Assembly (NCBI GenBank): GCA_903844735.1
Contig: CAIMUX010000049.1
Coordinates: 1 to 49,477 of the forward strand
DNA: 49,477 bases
Reading direction: 5' to 3'
Origin: Candidatus Eiseniibacteriota bacterium
GTDB lineage: Bacteria; Eisenbacteria; RBG-16-71-46; CAIMUX01
Below, piece after piece: positions 1 to 49,477 of this stretch. Positions within the stretch are counted from its first letter, which is position 1. Each line of letters opens with the position of its first letter. A program made the translations under genes and the position numbers. A model generated the notes under the pieces. The model made no database searches. It saw only the letters and a program-made list of their open reading frames with translations, and was not told where the DNA came from.

Positions 1-234
1 GTCTGCGATCCGAATTCATGCGTCCAGCCGGACGGCGCGTGCTGTGCGCTCGACGGCACCTGCACGGTCACGAAGTCGGTGGCCTGCACCGGGACCTCGA
101 CCTGGACGATGTTCGGCGTCTGCGATCCGAATTCATGCGTCCAGCCGGACGGCGCGTGCTGTGCGCTCGACGGCACCTGCACGGTCACGAAGTCGGTGGC
201 CTGCACCGGGACCTCGACCTGGACGATGTTCGGC
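1..234 (+). repeat. Two perfect 117-bp tandem repeats, third copy diverging
   Basis: Bases 1-117 and 118-234 are identical over their full length. A third copy begins at 235 with the same 14 bases, then diverges. The period is 39 codons, so copy number can change without breaking the frame. More copies may lie left of the window edge. Perfect identity suggests recent duplication, recombination, or possible assembly collapse. Confidence 0.97.
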
Positions 235-804
235 GTCTGCGATCCGAATCCGTGCCCGCCGCCGGTGAGCCACTATCTCCCGCAAACATCTCCGGCGAAT
301 GTCGTCGCCAATTTGCAGATGGCATACGGGGAGCGGAAGATCGGCGAGTACAAGAAGCTCTTCACGGAGGACTTCATCTTCGTCTTTAACCCTGTGGACC
401 CCGTCGACCCGGACCACCCAAGCCCACCTCAGTGGGGCCTGACTGATGAATTGGGCTCTACCCAGAACATGTTCGCCGACGAGCTGGTGACCAAGATCGA
501 AATCAGCAGTTACTCTTTCGGCGTGCCCGAAAGGGTCGATTCTGTCGATTTTCGCCCTCGGGCATGGAAGGTGAGAGTTGACCAGGTCAACCTTCAGGTC
601 TACACCCGGAGACCGGACGGCCAATGGCTGACCTTGCTCGTCGATGGGGCCACCGAGATGTTTTTCTTCGTCGAGGAGCCCAGCGAGCTGTCGCCGGTCG
701 ACGGCAGGCCGACTTGGTACATCTTCCGGTGGGAGGATCAGCCGATCGGGGGGATGAAGTCCGAGAGGGGGAGCTGGGGACAGGTGAAGAACCTGTTCCG
801 CTGA
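1..804 (+). CDS. Secreted protein with Cys-rich tandem repeats and SWGQ-type C-terminus (5' partial)
   Basis: The frame is open from base 1, so the N-terminus lies outside the window. The visible part begins with two identical 39-residue Cys-rich units (pattern CDPNSC..DGACC..DGTC....C) and the start of a third. A non-repetitive domain of about 170 residues follows; it resembles SnoaL/NTF2-like folds only loosely, and I do not assign it. The last 11 residues are GSWGQVKNLFR, almost the same as the end of the beta-helix protein at 42751-44004. GACC-type repeats are familiar from exported proteins of Planctomycetes-like and Eisenbacteria-like genomes. I infer an exported surface protein whose C-terminal tail may be a sorting or attachment tag. 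Function unknown. Confidence 0.75.
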   Translation, partial: VCDPNSCVQPDGACCALDGTCTVTKSVACTGTSTWTMFGVCDPNSCVQPDGACCALDGTCTVTKSVACTGTSTWTMFGVCDPNPCPPPVSHYLPQTSPANVVANLQMAYGERKIGEYKKLFTEDFIFVFNPVDPVDPDHPSPPQWGLTDELGSTQNMFADELVTKIEISSYSFGVPERVDSVDFRPRAWKVRVDQVNLQVYTRRPDGQWLTLLVDGATEMFFFVEEPSELSPVDGRPTWYIFRWEDQPIGGMKSERGSWGQVKNLFR

Positions 805-11500: not shown

Positions 11501-11819
11501 AATCATAACAATCGCTCTCGCCATCGCGGATTTGGATGTTGAACTGCTTCACACTTTTCGGTCACTCTGGGAGACACGGGGGGCGGGGTGCTTCCCGCAG
11601 TTGGATCCGCGGGGGAGGTGGCGTGCTTAACGGGCGGTGGCGGATTGGGCCGTGGTCCCTGGCGTACCCCGCTCCCGCGCCGTTTCCCGGCCTTCGGCAC
11701 CCACTGATCCCCGGTCCCGACCACCGATCGCAACCGGACGGCGTCCGTCTCCCGTACCGCCTGCGCGCATCGCGCGCCAACGGCGTTTTGAGGCGCGGTC
11801 GCTCGTGAGGATCCAAGCG
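11501..11819. other. Intergenic region upstream of the DUF6754 operon
   Basis: 319 bp with no supported gene. The plus-strand frame of the next gene stays open through most of it, but the encoded sequence is Pro/Arg-rich and has no signal peptide. I see no clear promoter consensus. Confidence 0.5.
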
Positions 11820-13109
11820 ATGCACCGGACTCGAGCCCATCCCGCTTCCCGCCTCGCTGCAGTTTTCTTGCTCCTTCCTCTCTTCTTGACCACGACGACG
11901 GGACACGCGCAGCTCCCTGCCGGCTCCGCGGAGAACGGCGCGGTTGAGAGGTCCGTGACCCCACCCCCACCCCCACCCCCACCCCCACCCCCACCGCCTC
12001 CACCGCTCCCCTTCACCGCCCCTATGGGGGTGACCGCGGCCGACACCCCGAGCGATGAGGGCGGGAGCATCACGGTGAAGTGGAATCCGGTGCCGGGCGC
12101 CGTCCGTTTCCGCATCGAGCGGGCGGAGTCGGGGAAGGAGTTCGAGGAGTCAGGCACCGCGATCCCCGCCTCCGGGAAGAAAGGGAAACCCCTGGCCCGG
12201 AGGTACAGGGAGAGTTACGTTGACGAGTCGTCCACCGACGGCACCCCGTTTACCTACCGCGTGGTGGCCCTCGGCCCCGGTGGTGAGGAGGGAGTCTCGG
12301 CAGCGAGCCAGCCGGCGACCAGCGGCCCGCAGTGGTTCAACCGCAATCTCACCCTTGTTCTCTTGGCCGTCATCGGTTTCATCCTTCTGACCGTTTACTT
12401 CATCCGACGGGCACGATCGGGCGAGCATCTTTTCATCCGGCGCATTGCCGGACTCGAGGCGGTCGACGAGGCCGTGGGTCGCGCCACCGAGATGGGCCGT
12501 CCGGTCCTCTTTCTTACCGGGATGGCCGACATCGACCAGATTCCCACCATCGCCGCGTTGAACGTCCTGGGAGAGATCTCGAAGAAGACGGCCAAGCTCG
12601 GCACGACCCTGCGCGTGCCGAACTGCAGGCCGGTGGTCTATACCGTGGCGCGCGAGGTGGTGAAGGGGGCCTATACCGAGGTCGGCCGGCCCGACGCCCA
12701 CGATCCGGAGAGCGTCTTCTTCGTCGTCGAGAACGTCCTCGCTTACGCCACCGCGATCTGCGGGATCATGACCCGCGAGAAACCGGCGGCCAATTTCCTG
12801 CTTGGCAACTATGGGGGCGAGTCGCTCGTCCTCGCCGAGACGGGCGCCATGACCGGGGCGATCCAGATTGCCGGGACCGACGCCACCACCCAGCTCCCGT
12901 TCTTCGTCGTCGCGTGCGACTACACGCTGATCGGCGAGGAGCTGTATGCCGCCTCCGCGTACCTCTCGCGCGAGCCGCTCGCGGTTGGCGCGCTGAAGGG
13001 GCAAGACTGGGGCAAGGTAGTCTTCCTGCTTTTCCTCGTGGTCGGCACCGTCCTCGCCCTCGTCACGGGCCTGGACGTGGGGCGCGTCCTCGAAACCGCG
13101 GCGCGCTGA
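11820..13109 (+). CDS. DUF6754 family membrane protein with fibronectin III domain
   Basis: 429 residues from ATG 11820, chosen because a signal peptide follows (hydrophobic core residues ~12-25, cleavage near GHAQ). Then a 15-residue polyproline tract (~48-62), an FN3-like domain (~66-160, GVTAADTPSDEGGS, WNPVPGAVRFRIER), a membrane helix (~167-188), a soluble domain of ~210 residues with GRPVLFLTGMADID and LGNYGGES, and a last membrane helix (~405-425). I recognise the DUF6754 signature; its function is not known to me. It heads four co-directional genes whose junctions are 25, -4 and -4 bases, so the products probably form one inner-membrane complex. Confidence 0.8.
   Translation: MHRTRAHPASRLAAVFLLLPLFLTTTTGHAQLPAGSAENGAVERSVTPPPPPPPPPPPPPPPLPFTAPMGVTAADTPSDEGGSITVKWNPVPGAVRFRIERAESGKEFEESGTAIPASGKKGKPLARRYRESYVDESSTDGTPFTYRVVALGPGGEEGVSAASQPATSGPQWFNRNLTLVLLAVIGFILLTVYFIRRARSGEHLFIRRIAGLEAVDEAVGRATEMGRPVLFLTGMADIDQIPTIAALNVLGEISKKTAKLGTTLRVPNCRPVVYTVAREVVKGAYTEVGRPDAHDPESVFFVVENVLAYATAICGIMTREKPAANFLLGNYGGESLVLAETGAMTGAIQIAGTDATTQLPFFVVACDYTLIGEELYAASAYLSREPLAVGALKGQDWGKVVFLLFLVVGTVLALVTGLDVGRVLETAAR
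11959..11998 (+). repeat. CCACCC hexanucleotide tract (polyproline; G-quadruplex-prone complement)
   Basis: About six tandem CCACCC hexamers encode part of a polyproline linker. The complement has at least five runs of five G separated by single T bases, a classic G-quadruplex pattern and a slippage hotspot. Changes by one unit keep the frame. Confidence 0.9.
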
Positions 13110-13134
13110 TCACCGGAAGAGGAGGTCGCAAGCG

Positions 13135-13812
13135 ATGCGTGTAAAGCTTCCCCTGGGGTTGATGATCTTCTTCGGGATCCTCGGCTTCACCGACAGCTTC
13201 GTTCCGCACCCATGGGCACAGAACTTTCACGGTGTCCTGCGGAACAAGGTTCTCATCGTCATCTCGGTCTTCGCCCTCGCCCTCGGGATCGGCAATCTGA
13301 TCAGCCACCATGTGACCCGCATCAAGAGGAAGGGGCCGAACTGGATCCACTCCTACACGACGTTGATCAGCTTAGGTATCGCGACTCTGATCGGCATCAT
13401 GGGCGGCGTCACCGGCAATGGCTGGCTCCCGACCCGGGTGGGCGGCTTCAAGTACGACATCCAGACGATCTACTTCAAGGTCTTGGTGCCGCTGCAGTCG
13501 ACCATGTTCGCCCTCCTGGCCTTCTTCATGGCCTCGGCCGCCTATCGGTCGTTTCGCGCCCGCAACCTTCTGGCCGGACTCCTCCTCGGCTCCGCTTTCG
13601 TGGTCATGCTGGGGCAGGTCCCGATCGGTGAGCTGTTGACCGGTTTCCTGCCGCCCGGCTTCCACGCGGCCGACATCTCGACCTGGATCATGCAGGTTCC
13701 CAACACCGCCAGTAAACGCGCGATCGAGCTCGGGCTCACCTTGGGGGTCCTCGGCACCATGCTCAAGATCCTGACCGGGATCGAGCGGAGCTGGCTCGGA
13801 GGTGGGCGATGA
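13135..13812 (+). CDS. Six-helix membrane protein of the DUF6754 operon
   Basis: 225 residues, ATG with GAGGAGG upstream, 25 bases after the first operon gene. Hydrophobic segments lie near 7-20, 38-57, 77-97, 118-140, 146-165 and 195-212, with the polar loop NWLPTRVGG-like stretch (GNGWLPTRVGGF) between the third and fourth. No catalytic motif is visible and I do not recognise the family. Tight coupling to the DUF6754 gene and to the next two genes suggests a subunit of one membrane assembly. The stop overlaps the next start by four bases (ATGA). Confidence 0.75.
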   Translation: MRVKLPLGLMIFFGILGFTDSFVPHPWAQNFHGVLRNKVLIVISVFALALGIGNLISHHVTRIKRKGPNWIHSYTTLISLGIATLIGIMGGVTGNGWLPTRVGGFKYDIQTIYFKVLVPLQSTMFALLAFFMASAAYRSFRARNLLAGLLLGSAFVVMLGQVPIGELLTGFLPPGFHAADISTWIMQVPNTASKRAIELGLTLGVLGTMLKILTGIERSWLGGGR

Positions 13813-14675
13813 ACTTCGAGAAGCTCCTCCACATTGACCGCAAGGTCATCTTCGTGCTGATGGGGGTGGCGATCGTCATCCCGCTGGTCTTTCCATTTCG
13901 TCTGCCGGTCGGGGAGCAGCCGCCGACCCGCGGGCTCTTTGACACCATCGACCGGATCGATCCGGCCAAGCAGGCTCTCATGGTCTCCACCGATTGGACG
14001 CCGCAGACCGAGGCCGAGAACCAGCCGATGACAGTGGCGCTCATTCGTCACGGCCTGGCGCGCAAACTGCGCGTCGTCGTGATCAGCTTCTACAACGAGT
14101 CGATCCCGATGGCGAATCAGGCGGTCATGCAGGTGGTCGAGGAGTACAACAGTCAGGCGAAGAACGAAGCGGAGAAAGTGGTCTACGGCCGGGATGTGGT
14201 TTTGCTGGGCTGGGTGCCGCCGCCCATTGTGCCGATCCTGGGAATGGGGCAGAGCATTACGGGTGTGTACAAGGTCGACTACTACGGTGCCGGCACCGAC
14301 ACGCTGCCGATCATGAAGGGGTTGGGCAGCTACGACGACATCGGGTTGGTCTGTGCCGTCTCCGGCGGCAGCTCGCCGCAATGGTTCCTCCAGTTTGCCC
14401 AGCCGCGCTACGGGGTGAAGATCGCGGCGGCGGTGACCGCGGTCAGCGCCCCCGACCTCTATGCCTACATTGAGTCCGGACAGCTCTCCGGGATGCTCGG
14501 CGGAATGAAGGGGGCTGCTGAGTACGAGAATCTGATCGAGGAGAAGTATCACGTGGGCGGGCGGCAGCGTGCGATGGAGGGGATGGGCCCCCAGTCGATC
14601 GGGCACCTCCTCATCATGGCCCTGGTCATTATGGGCAACGTCGGCTACTTCGTTGCCAGGAGGAAGGCGTCATGA
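13809..14675 (+). CDS. Membrane-anchored Rossmann-like protein of the DUF6754 operon
   Basis: 288 residues, ATG overlapping the previous stop, with GGAGGTG upstream. One membrane helix at each end (~17-33 and ~264-282) brackets a soluble alpha/beta region. The soluble part has repeated beta-strand/helix pairs (KQALMVSTDW, LRVVVISFYN, VVLLGWVPP, IGLVCAVSGGSS), which suggests a Rossmann-like layout, but no nucleotide motif is clear. The motif FPFRLPVGEQPP follows the first helix. Function unknown; role inferred only from operon position. Confidence 0.72.
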   Translation: MNFEKLLHIDRKVIFVLMGVAIVIPLVFPFRLPVGEQPPTRGLFDTIDRIDPAKQALMVSTDWTPQTEAENQPMTVALIRHGLARKLRVVVISFYNESIPMANQAVMQVVEEYNSQAKNEAEKVVYGRDVVLLGWVPPPIVPILGMGQSITGVYKVDYYGAGTDTLPIMKGLGSYDDIGLVCAVSGGSSPQWFLQFAQPRYGVKIAAAVTAVSAPDLYAYIESGQLSGMLGGMKGAAEYENLIEEKYHVGGRQRAMEGMGPQSIGHLLIMALVIMGNVGYFVARRKAS

Positions 14676-15436
14676 GGGGCAACGTGAGGTACCTCGCCTG
14701 GGCCGGCGTGGTCGTGGCCCTCGGCATTCTGTTCTACTCGACGCGTTCCACGATCTCGCACGACCCGTGGACCTGGGTCGGCGTCTTCCTGACGGTGGCG
14801 GTCTTTTCCTTCCTGTACCGAGAAAACCGTATCTACCGTTTTGCCGAGCACCTGGTCGTGGGCGTGGCCAACGGCTACAGCATCTCTTTCACGGTGCACC
14901 GGGTGATCGTGCCCTATGTTATCAAACCGCTCTCCGCGGGCTTCAAGGCTCTCGCCGCCGATGGGCCATCGCTGAAGCTCTTAGACCCGAACTCTTCTGC
15001 CAACTTCATCATCTTGGTGCCGCTGGCTATCGGGCTTCTCTACTTCGCTCGCTTCATTCCCAAGTACGCCTGGCTGGTGCGGATCCCCATGGCGATCTTC
15101 ATGGGGTACTACACCGGGCAGACGGTGCCGGCCGCGTTCACCGGGGTCGTTTTCCCCCAGTTGAAGGCGACTTTGGTCACACAGGCCAGCTTCGGCGGTG
15201 ATCCCTGGCTCGGGGTATGGAAGGTTCTGGTGCTGGTGGGTGTGCTCACGACGCTGACCTATTTCTTCTTTTCGCGAGAGCACAAGGGCGTGCTGAAGTG
15301 GAGTGCCAAGACCGGGATCATCTATGTCATGGTCGGGTTCGGAGCCTCGTTCGGCTTCACGGTCATGGCGCGGATTTCACTCGCCATCGGTCGCTTCTAC
15401 TTCCTTTTCCGCGACTGGCTCGGGATTCTGCACTGA
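14672..15436 (+). CDS. Multi-pass membrane protein, last gene of the DUF6754 operon
   Basis: 254 residues, ATG overlapping the previous stop (ATGA), with AGGAGGA upstream. Hydrophobic segments lie near 7-22, 32-48, 108-126, 134-150, 183-202 and 213-232. Short basic or aromatic loops include FLYRENRIYRFAEHL and FARFIPKYAWLVRIP. I know no named family. Together the four genes encode roughly sixteen membrane segments plus one FN3 domain and two soluble domains, a plausible envelope complex. Confidence 0.72.
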   Translation: MRGNVRYLAWAGVVVALGILFYSTRSTISHDPWTWVGVFLTVAVFSFLYRENRIYRFAEHLVVGVANGYSISFTVHRVIVPYVIKPLSAGFKALAADGPSLKLLDPNSSANFIILVPLAIGLLYFARFIPKYAWLVRIPMAIFMGYYTGQTVPAAFTGVVFPQLKATLVTQASFGGDPWLGVWKVLVLVGVLTTLTYFFFSREHKGVLKWSAKTGIIYVMVGFGASFGFTVMARISLAIGRFYFLFRDWLGILH

Positions 15437-17627: not shown

Positions 17628-17900
17628 GGCCGGCCGAGTCTACCCCCGGCGCGACGTGGGCGAAACCTTTCACCCCCTCCGGGAGTGCACCGCGGAACGT
17701 CTCTTCTGATCTTTTTGGAAGGCCCTGGACGCGATGAGCATGGGCCAACCCGCCCCACCCAACGGCTTCGCCAGCGCGAATTTCAAGCCGACCCGCTACC
17801 CACGACGGCGCCCGCTTGCAGTCCGCCGTCGGACGGCTATGATCTCGACACGCGGGTCGTGGCGACCCGCCCCCATGGACGGGGGTTTAAGGAGGTGCTC

Positions 17901-20585
17901 ATGCGGTGCCGGGGGTTGGATCGGATCAGGATCTCAGCTCACTTCGTGATCTTTCTTTCGGCCATAGCCACGACCGGGATGGCGCCCGCGAGGGCAAGCG
18001 GCGGGTCGCTCGTCGCGGGACTCTCCGACTCGGCCGTTCCCGCCGCGAACGAGTCTTCGCTCTGCGACCTCCCGGGATTCAATTCGACGGCGGTGCGTGA
18101 CGACGCCACCGCTCTCTACGCCAACCCCGCCGGGATCAACCGCTCGGTGCCGCTGGGCTACTACTTTGCCTGGGATTCCGGGATGCACGGCCGCGGCGAC
18201 CTCGGCACCTTCGGCATCACCGCCGGGGCCGCGGGGTTTGGCTACCAGCAGGTCCGCCCTTCGCGGGCCGGTCGCTATAGCCGCATGACGTTCGCAGTCG
18301 GAGGCGGATCGCGCGGGCCGGTCTCCCTGGGTCTGCGCGGCTCTCGCGAGCACCAGGCAACACGCGTCGGCCCCGACGCCGCGGCGTGGCGCTGGGATGC
18401 CGGACTGCTGTGGCGCCCCACGCGGGCCTTCAGCTTAGGAGCTCTGGCGCGTGACCTCACGGAAGAGCAGATGTTCACCGAGCCGTACCGCCGCAGCTAC
18501 GCGCTCGGCATCGGTGTCCGGCCGTTTCCCTGGGACAACCGGTCGCGCGTCACGCTCTTTGCCGACCTCACTGGAGGCGAGCAGGAGACATGGAGGGTCT
18601 GGAAGGACCACGCCCGCCTCGCCGTCGGCGGCCTGGTGGAGCCCCTCCCCGGGTTGGAACTTTCCGGCTCGATGGAAGGGAGTCTTAGCACCTTTTCCGA
18701 TGATCGCATCGTTCGTCTCGCGGTCGGACTGCACACCCGGCGCACCTCGTCGTGGGCCGGCACGCGCTATGATCGCCTCCGCGGCACCGCCGAGCGCCCC
18801 GACGACCGCGACGAGCGGATGGGGCACATTCTGGCCGTCCAAGGTACGGCGGCGCTGCAGCGGACGATGAAGAGGGAATCGGTCCTGGCGCGGATCCGTC
18901 TGGCCGGGACCTACGCTGACGGAGAGCAGAGTGGCGTGCCCATCCCGATCCCGATGATCGGCTCGCCATCGTACCGGAGCATCCGCCCCACGCTGCGCGA
19001 CCTCGCGCGTGCCGAGCGGGATCCCGATGTGCGGGGGGTACTCATCGAGTTGGGCCCGGTAAGTGCGGGTGCTCTCACCTCCGAGGTGCGCGACGCCATT
19101 CATCGCGTGCGCGCCGCGGGCAAACCGGTGGTCGCCGTCGCGGACGACATCGGCGGCTTCGGCACCTATCACCTGGCCGCCGCGTGCGACCGCATCGTCA
19201 TTGACCCGGTCGGCAGCGTAGAGCGGCTCGGCTTTCGCGGGGATGTTCTGTACCTCGGCGAGATGCTCGATTCCGCCGGCGTGCAGGTTGAAAAGGTGGC
19301 GCACGGCAAGTACAAGTCCGCCGGGGAGACGCTCATCCTTTCCCGCGCCTCAGAAGGGATGAAAGAGGCACTCAACGCCATCATCGACGACCAGCGCGAG
19401 GTCCTGCTCGCCGACATCAGCACCGATCGCAAGCTAACGAGGGAGAAGATCGAAGAGCTGGCCGACGGCAGGATGCTCGACGGCAACGAGGCGGTGGCGG
19501 CGGGCCTCGTCGATACCCTCGGTGATCGACGCGACGCGGAGAAGCTTCTCGCCCGGCTCGCTCGGAGGAAGGGCGAACCGCGGCTCGTCTCGATGTCGCG
19601 GCGCGTCGACCGCGACTATGCCTGGGCTGACGGGAAGAAGGTCGCGATTCTCTGGCTCGATGGCGAGATCGTCACCGGCAGGAGCGGCGGCGGTTTCTTC
19701 TCCGCGAACACCATCGGCTCGGAGACCGTGGCCAGGCAGTTGCTGGACATCGAGAAGCGCCGCGACGTGGCCGCGGTGGTGCTGCGCGTCGATTCACCCG
19801 GTGGGAGCGGACTGGCCTCCGACCAGATCTGGCGGGCCGTGGAGAAGGTGAAGAAGAAGGGGAAGAAGATCGTCGTCTCCATGTCGCGGGTGGCCGGCTC
19901 GGGCGGCTACTACATCGCTTGCGGCGCCGACGAGATCTTCGCCGACCCGATGACGATCACCGGCTCGATCGGCGTTCTCGGCCTGAAGCCGAATCTGGCC
20001 GGTTTCTACCGCCGTCACCGGCTCGGGGTAGAGACGTTCGAGCGCGGCCGCATGATGGGAATGTACTCTTCGGCCGTGCCGCTCACCGACGAGCAGCGGC
20101 AGCACATGCTCGACTACATCGACCGTTTCTATGCCCACTTCCTCGATCGCGTCACCGCGGGACGGCCGCTGACCAAGGAGCAAGTCGATGCGGTGGGGCA
20201 GGGGCGGATCTGGACGGGTCGGCAGGCGCTCTCCCACAAGCTGATTGACCGCATCGGCGGCCTCAGGGAGGCGGTCGATCGGGCGCGCGAGCTGGCCGGG
20301 CTGCCGCCGGACGCCAAGGTGGTAGAGATCGAGCGGCCAAACGGGTCGATTCTGGGGATGTTGCGTGAGGGGATGACGATGACGCTGGGTGGGGCCGGGA
20401 GCCCGGCGGGTCTCCGCGCGCCCCTAGCGTTGCTGGATGACACGGCGGCCGGTCTGGCCGGCGAGGTTGACCCGTTCGCGGCCTGGGCATGGAAGTGGAC
20501 CTGGCTGCAACGGATTGCCCCCGGTTCGGTGGCTGGACCTCTCCTCCTGAACCCGATGATGGAGGCGTTGATCGAGGCACAATAG
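17901..20585 (+). CDS. sppA: Signal peptide peptidase SppA fused to an N-terminal barrel-like domain
   Basis: 894 residues from ATG 17901, with GGAGGTG four bases upstream; the frame extends left without coding character. Signal peptide at 1-33 (APARASGG). Residues ~55-300 begin TALYANPAGI, a hallmark of PorV/FadL-like outer-membrane barrel proteins, and are rich in alternating aromatic strands. Residues ~345-860 are a 67K-type SppA with two S49 domains: the general-base Lys472 lies in GKYKSAGE and the nucleophile Ser667 in AGSGGYYIA. It should cleave remnant signal peptides or other membrane peptides. The barrel-SppA fusion is unusual compared with E. coli SppA, which has an N-terminal anchor only. 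Confidence 0.88.
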   Translation: MRCRGLDRIRISAHFVIFLSAIATTGMAPARASGGSLVAGLSDSAVPAANESSLCDLPGFNSTAVRDDATALYANPAGINRSVPLGYYFAWDSGMHGRGDLGTFGITAGAAGFGYQQVRPSRAGRYSRMTFAVGGGSRGPVSLGLRGSREHQATRVGPDAAAWRWDAGLLWRPTRAFSLGALARDLTEEQMFTEPYRRSYALGIGVRPFPWDNRSRVTLFADLTGGEQETWRVWKDHARLAVGGLVEPLPGLELSGSMEGSLSTFSDDRIVRLAVGLHTRRTSSWAGTRYDRLRGTAERPDDRDERMGHILAVQGTAALQRTMKRESVLARIRLAGTYADGEQSGVPIPIPMIGSPSYRSIRPTLRDLARAERDPDVRGVLIELGPVSAGALTSEVRDAIHRVRAAGKPVVAVADDIGGFGTYHLAAACDRIVIDPVGSVERLGFRGDVLYLGEMLDSAGVQVEKVAHGKYKSAGETLILSRASEGMKEALNAIIDDQREVLLADISTDRKLTREKIEELADGRMLDGNEAVAAGLVDTLGDRRDAEKLLARLARRKGEPRLVSMSRRVDRDYAWADGKKVAILWLDGEIVTGRSGGGFFSANTIGSETVARQLLDIEKRRDVAAVVLRVDSPGGSGLASDQIWRAVEKVKKKGKKIVVSMSRVAGSGGYYIACGADEIFADPMTITGSIGVLGLKPNLAGFYRRHRLGVETFERGRMMGMYSSAVPLTDEQRQHMLDYIDRFYAHFLDRVTAGRPLTKEQVDAVGQGRIWTGRQALSHKLIDRIGGLREAVDRARELAGLPPDAKVVEIERPNGSILGMLREGMTMTLGGAGSPAGLRAPLALLDDTAAGLAGEVDPFAAWAWKWTWLQRIAPGSVAGPLLLNPMMEALIEAQ

Positions 20586-41089: not shown

Positions 41090-42637
41090 ATGACGGAGGC
41101 CGGCAAGCGACCCGTCGCCGCGGCGATCATCGGGCTGACGCTCGTCGCCTTCCTCCTGCGGTTCTGGGGGTTGACGCGCCAGTCACTCTGGGCCGACGAG
41201 GCCTTCACCGTCATCTGGGCGGGTATCTTCGAAGGGTACACGGCCGAGAAGTTCTTCCTCAACCTTCAGGGTCCGGTCCATGCGGTCGCCCTTTATCTCT
41301 GGACCTGCCTCTTCGGAACCGGGGAAGCGGCGTTGCGTTCGTTCGGGGCCGTCCTCGGCACCGCCACCATCCCGTGCTTCTATTGGGCCCTCCGGCCCGT
41401 GCTGCGTCGGGAGGCTGCCCTCCTGGCCTGCCTGTTGCTCGCGGTGTCTCCGTTCCATCTCTGGTACTCGCAGGAGGTTCGCAACTACGTCCTTCTGATT
41501 CTAACGGGCATTGTGTCGATCGGGGCCTACCTCCGCATCCTTCAGGGCCAGAGAGGCTGGGTGCTCTACACCGTGGCCAATGTCCTGGGGCTCTTGAGCA
41601 ATCTCTCGTATGTATTCCTCTTGGGAGCCCAGGCGCTGGGGCTGGTCGGTTTCGGGCGCGGCCGGCGAACGCTTCTCGCTCGCATCGCCCTGAGCTGGAC
41701 CGCGACCGTCCTTGTTCTCACTCCGTGGTTCATTCAGTTCTACGATCGGAAGGTGGTTCCTTCCGGTCTCGCCGGACATCCGGCAACGACGGACCTGACC
41801 CAGGTTCGGGGCGCCACAACGGTGCCGATCTTAGGCCTGCCGTATGCCTACTACGTCTTTGCCACCGGCTACAGCTTCGGGCCCAGCCTTGCCGAACTGC
41901 ACGAAACCGCCGGCGCCGGATTGACCGCTTCCGTCCGGGGGCATCTGCCGGCACTCCTTTGGGCCGCGGCGGTCTTCGGGATGGTGGGACTCATGGGCGC
42001 GCGGAAACTCTGGCGCGAGGGAGGCCCGCAGCGCTTCTGGCTTCTCCTTCTCGTTTTTCCGGTGGCGCTGACGTATCTGGTCGCACTCCTGAACCTGAAG
42101 GTCTTCAACGCCCGCTATGCCGCCGTGGCCTTCCCGGCCGTGCTGGTCGTCTTGACCATGGGCGTTCTCGCGTCGCCCCGGGCCTGGGTTCGGTGGTCAC
42201 TCCTCGCGGCCATCCTCATTTCTTTCGGCGTCAGCATCGCGGGATACGAGTTCGACCCTCGCTATTGGAAGGAAGACGCACGCTCCGCCACCGCGTTCCT
42301 TCGCACCGAGGCCCGTTCGGGGGATCTTCTCCTCAGCGTGGGTTCCGATATCCCCCTAGGTGCGTACTACTGGCCCGCGGGAGGCGGGGTGCCTCCGGGG
42401 CTTGAGCAGTGGAACATCGTGAGCTGGCAGGAGGAGGGGCTGGGGATCGGAGAGCAGTTCGACCGTTTCGAGGAACTGGTGCGCGGGCATCGGCGCGTCT
42501 TCGTCCTTTTCCTGCGCCCGACGGACACCGATCGCGACGGCCTCTGGACCGAGCATCTCGGGCGCCGTCACGGAATCGAACGAACCGTGACCTATCCCGG
42601 GGTCACGATCCACGTCATTGCGGGTGGTGCGCCATGA
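41090..42637 (+). CDS. GT39/PMT-family membrane glycosyltransferase
   Basis: 515 residues, ATG with GAGAGGGGG upstream. First helix at 10-27, then the catalytic acidic motif SLWADEAFT (~32-40) as in dolichyl-phosphate-mannose mannosyltransferases and ArnT. About ten membrane segments follow to residue ~395, including FHLWYSQEVRNY near 124. The periplasmic C-terminal domain (~400-515) ends in an alpha/beta unit. It should transfer a sugar from a polyprenyl-phosphate donor. It is distinct in sequence from the glycosyltransferase at 5357. Stop overlaps an in-frame ATG of the next frame, but the next gene starts later. Confidence 0.85.
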   Translation: MTEAGKRPVAAAIIGLTLVAFLLRFWGLTRQSLWADEAFTVIWAGIFEGYTAEKFFLNLQGPVHAVALYLWTCLFGTGEAALRSFGAVLGTATIPCFYWALRPVLRREAALLACLLLAVSPFHLWYSQEVRNYVLLILTGIVSIGAYLRILQGQRGWVLYTVANVLGLLSNLSYVFLLGAQALGLVGFGRGRRTLLARIALSWTATVLVLTPWFIQFYDRKVVPSGLAGHPATTDLTQVRGATTVPILGLPYAYYVFATGYSFGPSLAELHETAGAGLTASVRGHLPALLWAAAVFGMVGLMGARKLWREGGPQRFWLLLLVFPVALTYLVALLNLKVFNARYAAVAFPAVLVVLTMGVLASPRAWVRWSLLAAILISFGVSIAGYEFDPRYWKEDARSATAFLRTEARSGDLLLSVGSDIPLGAYYWPAGGGVPPGLEQWNIVSWQEEGLGIGEQFDRFEELVRGHRRVFVLFLRPTDTDRDGLWTEHLGRRHGIERTVTYPGVTIHVIAGGAP

Positions 42638-42750: not shown

Positions 42751-44004
42751 GTGAAACACACAATCTTCGCGATCGGGTTCCTGTTCCTCGCCGGTCCGGC
42801 ATCCGCCGCCGTCCTCAACGTCAAGGCCGACGGTACCGGGGGGTATCCCACCATCCAGGCTGCCGTGACCGCGGCCGTCCTCAGCGACATCGTGGAATTA
42901 GAGAACGGCATCTACACCGGCGCCGGCAACCGCGACGTCGACCTCCAGGGTAAGGCGATCACGGTGCGATCCCAAGGCGGGAGCCCTTCGCTCTGCATCA
43001 TCGACTGCGAGGGCAGCAGCACGACGCCCCACCGGGGATTCCAGCTTGCGGTGGGCTCAATCCTCGAAGGGGTCACGGTGCGCAACGGCTACGACCCCTA
43101 CAGCGGCGGCGGCGCGGTCGCCCTGGCCGGTGCCACGATTCGCCGCTGCGTGTTCTCCGGGAACCAGACGCCGACGGGGGGATCCGGCGGGGCGCTCGAG
43201 ATCTATGACGGCTCTCTGATTCAGGACTGCGAGTTCACCTCCAACCGGTCGGGCAGCGGCGGGGCCATCACGGCAGACGCCGCCGTGGTGATCGATAACT
43301 GCACGTTCACCGGAAATACCGCTTCCGAGGGACAAGCCGTCGAGGCATGGGCCTGTACCATCAGGAACTCGCGGTTCGTAAACAACGGGAATCAGTACGG
43401 GCGGGGCGGAGCGATCACGGTGGGCGATGGCTGCTTTGTCGAAGATTGCTACTTCCAGTCGAACAGAGCTCAGGCGGGAGGCGCAATCAACCTGCTCACG
43501 GGAAGCAACCATGTTACCCGCGCCACCTTCGTGGCGAATCAAGCCGAGTACGGCGGCGCCTGCACTGGGTTCTACGGTGGTCAAGGGACCATGGCAAACT
43601 GCACCTTCTATGGCAACGCAGCCTCGTCCGGGGGGAGCGTCTTCTACGCAGAGGGCAGCGGTGACTCGCAGATGAACAACTGTATTGCTGCTTTCAACCT
43701 GGGCGTCGCGCCATTTCTGTACGGTTCGAGCTACCGTCTCCACTGCGCCTGCACGGACGTCTTCGGCAATGCTGGGGGTGGCTGGTTTGACTGGATGGAT
43801 CCAGGCAATGCCGGCAACATCAGCCTGGACCCGTCCTTCTGCGATGTGCAGTCCGGGGACTTCCACCTGCTGGACAACTCGCCGTGCGCGCCGTTCAACC
43901 CGCAGAACCCGACCTGCGATCTGATCGGCGCCTGGCCCGTCGGTTGCCTGGCGACCCCGACCCAGAGGACCAGTTGGGGCCAATTGAAGACGATCTTCCG
44001 CTGA
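42751..44004 (+). CDS. Secreted beta-helix (polymorphic-repeat) protein with SWGQ-type C-terminus
   Basis: 417 residues from GTG 42751 (AGGGGGG six bases upstream), chosen for the signal peptide that follows (MKHTIFAIGFLFLAG, cleavage near ASAA); an ATG at 42634 would bury it. Residues ~25-370 are right-handed beta-helix coils, with repeated CxFxGN/SGGA units (CVFSGNQTP, CEFTSNRSG, CTFTGNTAS, CYFQSNRAQ, CTFYGNAAS) as in parallel-helix lyases and Chlamydia-type Pmp proteins. The last residues are RTSWGQLKTIFR, nearly the same as in the protein ending at 804. No catalytic Asp cluster is evident; it is probably a surface or adhesion protein. Confidence 0.82.
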   Translation: MKHTIFAIGFLFLAGPASAAVLNVKADGTGGYPTIQAAVTAAVLSDIVELENGIYTGAGNRDVDLQGKAITVRSQGGSPSLCIIDCEGSSTTPHRGFQLAVGSILEGVTVRNGYDPYSGGGAVALAGATIRRCVFSGNQTPTGGSGGALEIYDGSLIQDCEFTSNRSGSGGAITADAAVVIDNCTFTGNTASEGQAVEAWACTIRNSRFVNNGNQYGRGGAITVGDGCFVEDCYFQSNRAQAGGAINLLTGSNHVTRATFVANQAEYGGACTGFYGGQGTMANCTFYGNAASSGGSVFYAEGSGDSQMNNCIAAFNLGVAPFLYGSSYRLHCACTDVFGNAGGGWFDWMDPGNAGNISLDPSFCDVQSGDFHLLDNSPCAPFNPQNPTCDLIGAWPVGCLATPTQRTSWGQLKTIFR

Positions 44005-47334: not shown

Positions 47335-49116
47335 CTAACGCCCGGGCAAGCGGCGCAGCACGAACTTGTAGCTCGTGGTCCGCTCCCCGCTGACCAGACG
47401 AACGAAGTAGACGCCCGGCGTCGCCGTGTTGCCCCGCGCGTCCAGGCCATCCCACATTGCCGTGTGCGCCCCGACGCCGAAACGGTCATCCGCGAGCGTG
47501 CGGACACGGTGCCCGGCCACGTCGAAGATCTCCAATCTCGCCCGCTCCGCCAACGACAGCACGAAGTCAATCGCGGCCGGTCCGCCGGTGGGGTTCGGAA
47601 CCACGCCGCGAATGCCGAACTCGAAGGCACCCGTGCCGAGGTCGATCCCACTCGGGCCACAGTCACACGTAATTGCGCACATGTCGATCACACCCGGCAC
47701 GCCGTCGCAGAAGAACGTCACCTTGAAGCAGCACGTGTCCGGGATCGCCGTGCCCAGCGCCGCGGTGACCCTGATGTAGCCGGTCCAACCCGGAGGCACG
47801 GGGTTGGGCGACGGGGTCGTCATGTCCTCCTCAACGAGCGTGGCGCCGAAGCCGGGGCAGAGACCCATGATCGACCACGGGTTGCCGGTTCCGCTCGGAC
47901 AGACCAGCGCGGGGATGTGGATCAGCGAAGCACCCACCCCGGGGCAGACCTTGAGCTCGCCGAAGTGCTTGTTCACCTGACCGCCGCCGGCCGCGCCCGT
48001 CCAGACGATGTCGACGTTGCCGTTCCAGTGGTCCCCCGGCGCGCATGGCCCCGGTTCGTCGTCGGTGCCCTTCGCATCGTCGCCGCGCTTCCCGCTCACC
48101 GGCTGTTGGCTCGGCGGCAGCTCGCTCATCGGCACTTCGAAGAAAACGTCGAAGAAGCTGTCGGGCGCGATCGGCGGCACTTCGAACACCCCGATTGTGC
48201 CGTAGACAGGCTGGAACACGCCGAACGGCTGCGAGTGCATGGCGCCGCTGATCGGCGAGGTTGCCTGCGTCAAACTCGGGTTATCCCACCGCATGTGGAA
48301 GCGGACGGTGCTCGTCCCGGTCAGCGTCGCCCACTCGACCGTGCCCAGCAACGGACCCGGGCCGGTCGGAATGCAGTTACACGTCGTGGCGCACAGATTT
48401 ACCGTGGACACCTGGCCCGCGCAGACGAACCGGATCGCGAAACAGCAGGTGCTCGGCACCGGCGTGCCGGTAAGCGCGGTGACGCAGACCCAACCGGACC
48501 AGGCTGGCGGCAACGGGTTCGGCGCAGGAGTAACCTGATCCTCATTCATCAATTGAGCGGAAAATCCCGAACACAGGCCGGTGATGGACCACGTTGCCAA
48601 TCCGGCACACCCGGTCGCGACGTGAATCAACGAGCAACCGGCGCCCGGACATACCTTGATCTCACCCTCGTGGTAGAGAACCTCGCCCTGCCCCCCGAGG
48701 CCGTTCCAGATCACGTCGACATTGCCATCCCAGTGATCGCCCTGCGGGCATGGATCTCCCGCGCCGCCGATCGGAACCACGTTGGGTGGATTCTGCGGCA
48801 GTTGGGCCAGCGGGATTTCAAGGAAGACGTCGAAGAAACTGAATGGCATAATGACGGGCACATCGAACGACCGCGGCGGACCGGAATTGGGCAGGAATGC
48901 CCCGAACGATTGTGGGGTCAGCGATCCCGCAACCGGCTGCGTGGGCACGGCACCCGGGTTGTCAAATCGCAGATGGAACTGCACGTTGCTCCCGATGGTC
49001 GTCCAGTTGATGTTGGTATCGAGCAAGCGCACCGACGCCATGGCGGAACTCGAGCAGAACGCCAGGCCGATACCAAGCACCACGATGCACCGAAGTGCTG
49101 TAGTGGATCGAGACAT
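47335..49116 (-). CDS. Secreted duplicated Cys-rich protein with FlgD-like/T9SS type A C-terminal domain
   Basis: 593 residues from ATG 49116, preceded by GGAGGTCC. Signal peptide at 1-27 (SSSAMA). Two homologous halves of ~220 residues follow, each with PFSFFDVF-like (PDSFFDVF), GDHWDGNVD/GDHWNGNVD, IKVCPG/LKVCPG and TCCFAIRF/TCCFKVTF, and many paired Cys. The last ~85 residues are a FlgD Ig-like/type IX sorting-type domain (GVVPNPTGG, LEIFDVAGHRVRTL, WDGLDARG, GVYFVRL). Expected to be exported and attached or displayed at the surface. Function unknown. Its promoter and terminator are both visible. Confidence 0.85.
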   Translation of the reverse strand: MSRSTTALRCIVVLGIGLAFCSSSAMASVRLLDTNINWTTIGSNVQFHLRFDNPGAVPTQPVAGSLTPQSFGAFLPNSGPPRSFDVPVIMPFSFFDVFLEIPLAQLPQNPPNVVPIGGAGDPCPQGDHWDGNVDVIWNGLGGQGEVLYHEGEIKVCPGAGCSLIHVATGCAGLATWSITGLCSGFSAQLMNEDQVTPAPNPLPPAWSGWVCVTALTGTPVPSTCCFAIRFVCAGQVSTVNLCATTCNCIPTGPGPLLGTVEWATLTGTSTVRFHMRWDNPSLTQATSPISGAMHSQPFGVFQPVYGTIGVFEVPPIAPDSFFDVFFEVPMSELPPSQQPVSGKRGDDAKGTDDEPGPCAPGDHWNGNVDIVWTGAAGGGQVNKHFGELKVCPGVGASLIHIPALVCPSGTGNPWSIMGLCPGFGATLVEEDMTTPSPNPVPPGWTGYIRVTAALGTAIPDTCCFKVTFFCDGVPGVIDMCAITCDCGPSGIDLGTGAFEFGIRGVVPNPTGGPAAIDFVLSLAERARLEIFDVAGHRVRTLADDRFGVGAHTAMWDGLDARGNTATPGVYFVRLVSGERTTSYKFVLRRLPGR

Positions 49117-49477
49117 GAGGACCTCCTCTCGGAACCGAAGGCGGATGCGCGGCAAGCGCGCGTGAAGGCAGTGGACACGCTCACGAGATCCCACGTCATG
49201 TTGCTCCGGCAATGGACCCGATGAGCGGCGGGAGTATGATCCCAACGAGAGTCGACGTCAAGAACCATTTTGCGATCCAATCTACACAATCTGTTCACAA
49301 CAAGATGGGTTGGTTTCGTCAATCTCAGGAAGAATGATCCCGGATTTCGCAGGGGTCACCCGCGGTGGTCCCGGATCGGACCGGGAACGCCGTGTCCGGC
49401 GGCGTGATGGGTTCCGGAGTCTCGATCCAGGGGGTCGGCTTCGTCCCGGGACCGTTTATACAGCTCGATTGGACGTA
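49117..49477. other. Upstream region and right edge of window
   Basis: 361 bp. The part up to 49330 is AT-richer and holds the promoter of the minus-strand gene. From 49365 to the edge the plus strand has an open frame whose peptide (SGGVMGSGVSIQGVGFVPG) looks protein-like, but it has no clear start or ribosome site. It may be the beginning of another gene. Confidence 0.4.
49233..49261 (-). promoter_or_regulatory. Sigma-70-type promoter of the duplicated secreted protein
   Basis: On the minus strand TTGACG (49256-49261), a 17-base spacer and CATACT (49233-49238) lie about 115 bases upstream of the start codon at 49116. Confidence 0.65.

Follow-up and report, generated by a model that had tools for sequence, protein, structure and literature searches.

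The window, meaning the whole stretch of 49,477 nucleotides analysed here, encodes two proteins that end in a common short C-terminal tail, and a third protein, which is exported and ends differently. The features are as follows:

1 to 804, forward strand: tailed protein 1, with Cys-rich repeats, an NTF2-like domain and the C-terminal tail (open reading frame)
757 to 801, forward strand: tail of protein 1, KSERGSWGQVKNLFR, with the core SWGQVKNLFR at 772-801 and the stop codon at 802-804 (sequence and genome-wide pattern)
42751 to 44004, forward strand: tailed protein 2, with signal peptide MKHTIFAIGFLFLAGPASA, a right-handed beta-helix and the tail (Pfam PF13229, E 4e-14)
43957 to 44001, forward strand: tail of protein 2, PTQRTSWGQLKTIFR, with the core SWGQLKTIFR at 43972-44001 and the stop codon at 44002-44004 (sequence)
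47335 to 49245, reverse strand: for contrast, an exported protein with a terminal FlgD-like/T9SS type A sorting domain (TIGR04183, PF13860)

The terminal domain of the last protein (TIGR04183, E 2e-6, above the cut-off; PF13860, E 1e-6) is this genome's other C-terminal signal. The reading frame at 1-804 ends in ...ERGSWGQVKNLFR (longer excerpt SERGSWGQVKNLFR) and the one ending at 44004 in ...TQRTSWGQLKTIFR, each with the stop codon immediately after; the tail is absent from every other open reading frame in the window. BLASTP of protein 1 against protein 2 aligned residues 254-267 with 403-416 at 57% identity (E 0.003), which are the last 14 residues only, and the other three alignments had E values of 0.35 or worse. 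The original prediction had proposed an identical kind of ending on two proteins whose preceding domains are unrelated, and both parts of that proposal hold.

The gene of protein 1 is truncated at the contig start, so its N-terminus and signal peptide are not visible. Its Cys-rich repeats are encoded by a 117-bp tandem repeat at 1-249. The protein has no Pfam match of its own. Its NTF2-like C-terminal half is 35% identical to L025, a complete, lipoprotein-like tailed protein of the same genome with a weak SnoaL_4 match. Three more tailed genes of this genome (L003, L019, and L021) are also truncated at contig ends within near-identical Cys-rich repeats; the assembly breaks inside these repeats, which hides the N-termini of tailed proteins. 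For protein 2 the start was placed by inspection at GTG 42751, where a clear signal peptide follows, and the longest open reading frame opens at 42409.

Two other regions of the window were noted. The gene at 17883-20582 (forward strand) encodes an SppA-like signal peptide peptidase (Peptidase_S49, E 2e-75) whose N-terminus carries a long extension. This extension opens with a signal peptide and, by eye only, looks like a PorV/FadL-type outer membrane barrel (ALYANPAGI). Such an SppA-barrel fusion, if real, would be unusual. A DUF6754 protein (11637-13106, forward strand, E 2e-106) is followed by three co-directional membrane-protein reading frames at 13135-15436, two of which were scanned without a Pfam match. 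The region 11637-15436 is a conserved-looking operon with no assigned function.

The 5.4-Mb genome was searched with the pattern WGx[ILV]Kxx[FY][R/S] without demanding a stop codon. This gave 25 matches, and the reversed pattern gave none. All 25 lie at the end of a reading frame, 0-6 residues before the stop codon and mostly exactly at it; a few proteins thus tolerate 1-6 extra residues after the motif. The consensus in this genome is P[TV]PTExxSWGQIKxxYR-stop, and the general consensus is [TV]P[TV]ExxSWGx[IVL]Kxx[YF]R at the C-terminus. In 112 loci of other genomes (823 kb), 141 of 145 motifs were found exactly at the stop codon, four within 8 residues of it and none internally. The majority of these loci had been selected by a stop-containing pattern, so the unbiased part of this count is the absence of internal motifs. 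No motif match was found in 502 untailed genes (183,000 residues). It had been foreseen that a motif occurring inside proteins as often as at their ends would speak against a C-terminal signal; this did not occur, and the observation is confirmed and far larger in extent than first noted. Variants with W-S in place of W-G (WSTIKSLYR, WSAIKGLY, WSGIKGLYR, and WSRIKATYAR) occur on homologues of tailed proteins (L187, L155, L151, L166, L106, and L013). Since the pattern misses them, tail counts are lower bounds.

Signal peptides, scored by a simple home-made heuristic scanner, were found in 66 of 72 tailed proteins vs. 164 of 502 untailed neighbour genes (Fisher p 1e-22), an enrichment that had been proposed as a check on the first observation. 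Almost all complete tailed proteins carry a signal peptide and some a lipobox; the lipoprotein-like ones include L025, L040, L183, and L184. After removal of the tail, 217 proteins fell into 78 blastp clusters. Among 113 tailed proteins scanned, the bodies span 27 Pfam families. They include beta-helices, NTF2-like domains, FG-GAP repeats, NHL propellers, lamin-tail domains, pectate lyases, a peroxiredoxin-like domain, carbohydrate-binding modules, and numerous unknowns. An alignment of the 113 proteins left only the signal-peptide pattern and PxxxxxWGxIKxLYR common to all, with the W, G, and K of the tail invariant at a mean column identity of 7%. These data bear on the explanation that the tails have no shared function and either descend from a single old gene family, whose end was spread by duplication and domain shuffling, or arose by chance. 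Some bodies are indeed related (the largest cluster holds 68 of the 217 proteins), but the number of clusters and the three invariant residues argue against it, chance is already excluded by controls that were zero or near zero, and we regard this explanation as highly improbable.

The NCBIfam matches of the tailed proteins include 'choice-of-anchor' families E and X, and their bodies also match families that elsewhere bear PEP-CTERM or GlyGly-CTERM (ScyF and ExeM). The tail itself is covered by no Pfam or NCBIfam model. Neither PF18962 nor FlgD_ig is among the Pfam families shown for the 113 proteins, and the 25 families shown for NCBIfam include no T9SS CTD model. With no such match among these families, the tail is not a member of the T9SS CTD families. 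The earlier statement that it differs from the FlgD-like/T9SS type A ending is thereby borne out, no scanned tailed protein having a FlgD-like or Por_Secre_tail domain. The reading of the tail as a sorting or anchoring signal is supported by its C-terminal position, its restriction to exported proteins, and the diversity of its bodies. In this broad sense we are confident that the tail is a real, phylum-wide, and apparently undescribed signal; a search of the open-access literature found it described nowhere.

Of the 47 Eiseniibacteriota genomes, 44 have the tail, as do 78 of the 80 from Krumholzibacteriota (the phylum of G047); the maximum is 71 copies per genome (G059). We considered a single conserved core protein as the source of all low-copy cases in Krumholzibacteriota and rejected it, the singletons belonging to different families. 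Among 338 genomes of other phyla, high counts were found in seven further family codes (11 genomes) and otherwise 0-2 per genome. Reversed-pattern and internal-motif controls were zero or near zero.

SprA/Sov, the T9SS translocon, was sought with TIGR04189 in the same 385 genomes. It was found in 43 of the 47 Eiseniibacteriota genomes. Outside the phylum, 38 genomes had both tail and SprA, 5 had the tail without SprA, 55 had SprA without the tail, and 240 had neither (Fisher p 2e-19, uncorrected for relatedness). SprA was therefore present in 38 of 43 tail-positive genomes, and in 11 of the 11 genomes with at least 10 tails. The five tail-positive genomes without SprA are near background, as the reversed pattern matches about seven genomes. 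The tail is above background only where the genome encodes SprA. The genome of the window has an SprA frame of 2338 residues (at C47), 114 type A CTD matches, and 13 PorV-family matches. The original prediction had suggested two surface-sorting routes. The distinct ending agrees with this only in part: the distribution of the tail follows the T9SS translocon, and the two endings may be signals for one and the same route. According to one review, CTD proteins occur in Bacteroidota only (PMC10202324). Type A CTD matches nonetheless numbered 61 to 150 or more per genome outside that phylum, in the genome of the window (G000), G001, G025, G038, and nine others.

The association has limits. The T9SS does not require the tail, since 55 SprA-positive genomes outside the phylum lack an exact tail and one within it (G038) has SprA, 68 CTD matches, and no tail. 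The association is inflated because the SprA-bearing phyla are kin, and part of it may reflect shared ancestry, the SprA-bearing FCB lineages being related. A T9SS-independent system is accordingly to be considered, in which an unknown dedicated outer membrane or periplasmic receptor, or a sortase, binds or cleaves the tail and SprA co-occurs merely as a trait of the same superphylum. The many SprA-positive genomes without a tail, G038 among them, would fit such a system, and so would a tail wholly unlike T9SS CTDs. Against it, no SprA-negative lineage has the tail above background, and the tail swaps with CTDs on homologous bodies, as described below. We consider it unlikely, though it is the strongest of the alternatives.

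Bodies homologous to tailed ones end in FlgD-like CTDs at six loci (L064, L053, L097, L121, L092, and L232). Since homologous bodies end in either, tail and CTD substitute for each other. In other phyla, most of the single tail matches examined were one gene, for a secreted protein of 130-160 residues that consists of an FN3-like sandwich followed by [TS]WGSIKA[ML]FR (hereafter the FN3-tail protein). A profile search found one full-length copy in each of 17 genomes, which belong to about a dozen families and are all SprA-positive. The same FN3-like domain also precedes ordinary type A CTDs (L266, L267, and L271); the single-copy protein has TWGSIKAxFR where the CTD stands elsewhere. Its gene adjoins porD (DUF4835, NF052317) in 4 of the 17 genomes, and in G136 it also lies next to a PorV/PorQ-family gene. 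PorD itself binds SprE/PorW as part of the extended translocon of the T9SS (PMC10994853; PMC8754138). The FN3-tail protein is a concrete new candidate partner of the T9SS. A lysine-ending variant, SSWGEIKAEFK, follows an FN3-like domain at L273 and L269 (genomes G284 and G422). Several matches in G422 reach the end of the profile, and this lysine-variant lineage was missed by the exact pattern.

We searched for a receptor or processing enzyme of the tail and identified no receptor. Exosortase, the obvious known enzyme, was ruled out by its distribution: it is absent from G055 (44 tails), G270, G407, and G372 and present in G038, which has no tail. This failure to track the tail also weighs against the T9SS-independent system. 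Two exosortase genes were noted in the genome of the window (C25:16946-17701 and C2:112736-113494); surface sorting there may use a third route, of the PEP-CTERM type. PorD was rejected as the tail receptor, being undetected in the tail-rich genomes tested, an absence that favours a system independent of the T9SS. Tail loci showed no enrichment of PorV-like shuttle genes (4 in 823 kb vs. about 3 expected); the family has 7-16 copies in each of 16 genomes tested. In the genome of the window (C22), a PorV-family gene at 49171-50088 lies ∼2-3 kb upstream of the tailed gene L006 (tail at 52781-52806). Lone PorV-like neighbours such as this one and those at L079 and L200 were taken as a coincidence or a lead only. 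No tailed gene stands beside sprA at its locus in this genome (L247). The only large cluster among tail-locus neighbours was that of FlgD-like-CTD proteins (26 of 112 loci, without a measured background).

Drawn as a helix, the tail would be amphipathic and basic, but its helical and strand moments are similar and leave its conformation undecided. In the AlphaFold model of the FN3-tail protein the sandwich is confident, whereas the tail forms a low-confidence helix that is not docked (pLDDT about 60). Foldseek with this model returned generic FN3-like hits, with T9SS structures absent near the top. A low-confidence single-sequence fold of the beta-helix protein of the window (mean pLDDT 53) gave only a weak hint of a helix at the tail. 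A short amphipathic basic peptide that is predicted undocked, if weakly so in the second model, and that tolerates 1-6 extra residues could instead be a docking peptide. In that case it would take no part in translocation and would retain exported proteins by non-covalent binding to one common partner, such as an S-layer or peptidoglycan protein or a scaffold that is extracellular or in the outer membrane. No candidate partner was found, however, and the lipoprotein-type tailed proteins listed above are expected to be membrane-anchored already. We think this improbable, more so than a T9SS-independent receptor.

Compared with known systems, the tail resembles the T9SS type A CTD (TIGR04183/PF18962) in several ways. 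Both are C-terminal, sit on diverse Sec-exported bodies in the same genomes, and are exchangeable on homologous bodies; type A CTDs, like the tail, are numerous (tens to more than 100 per genome). The CTD, however, is an Ig-like sandwich of roughly 70-100 residues, whereas the tail has ∼9-15 residues of unrelated sequence. The type B (TIGR04131) and type C CTDs, of ∼100 residues or more, are alternative signals for one translocon, and type B CTDs use other shuttles (PMC12618676). PEP-CTERM/exosortase, IPTL-, MYXO-, and GlyGly-CTERM, and LPXTG are likewise C-terminal tags found many times per genome on exported proteins, and PEP-CTERM was discovered in the same way as the tail (PMC1569441). In tags of the PEP-CTERM/LPXTG type a TM helix and a basic cluster follow the motif, whereas tailed proteins end at it; their sequences contain neither an LPXTG motif nor a TM helix. 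The segment P-x-E..[ST][ST]WG may resemble 'PEPSTWA' and 'PTLSEWG'.

Our preferred reading takes the tail as a short sorting signal at the C-terminus that can be transplanted between Sec-exported proteins and is read by the T9SS or coupled to it; we put its probability at roughly 0.5. The tail is C-terminal, modular, specific to exported proteins, and exchangeable with the T9SS CTD, and its distribution follows SprA. Coupling to the T9SS is inferred from these correlations, as is any recognition, and taken alone the evidence for it is about evenly balanced. A short signal is plausible because, in the type A CTD, the T9SS signal was reported to lie in the last 22 residues and the C-terminus tolerates extension (PMC5445135; PMC11285876). 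Counted against the reading are that the described signals (types A, B, and C) are all large domains of ∼100 residues or more (PMC10202324; PMC12618676), that PorD, a shuttle link, and a receptor were not found, and that there is no experiment.

Under this reading, the proteins would first leave the cytoplasm through Sec, as precursors with a signal peptide or of the lipoprotein type. In the periplasm, the tail, perhaps a short amphipathic basic helix with W, I, [L/I], and Y/F on one side and K and R alongside, would bind to a T9SS translocon component or to a PorV-like shuttle. The bound protein would then pass through or onto the outer membrane with no need for a folded CTD; both steps are inferred. 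The FN3-TWGSIKAxFR protein may represent the minimal or the ancestral client of the T9SS, or an accessory to it, and Eiseniibacteriota, Krumholzibacteriota, and some other lineages may have expanded use of the tail. More tentatively, the tail could be a fourth kind of T9SS signal, a linear peptide of ∼9-15 residues without a folded CTD that acts via SprA on exported proteins, lipoprotein-type ones included, of several uncultured phyla, with the conserved single-copy FN3-tail protein near porD as an undescribed T9SS partner.

The tail would let the surface proteome be partly read off in phyla known only from metagenomes, where these proteins are mostly 'hypothetical'. Should the tail be read by the T9SS, the idea of a folded domain of ∼100 residues as a requirement for T9SS cargo would be incomplete. 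A tag this short, of about ten residues, would then also offer a convenient handle on the unsolved problem of T9SS cargo recognition and on surface display.
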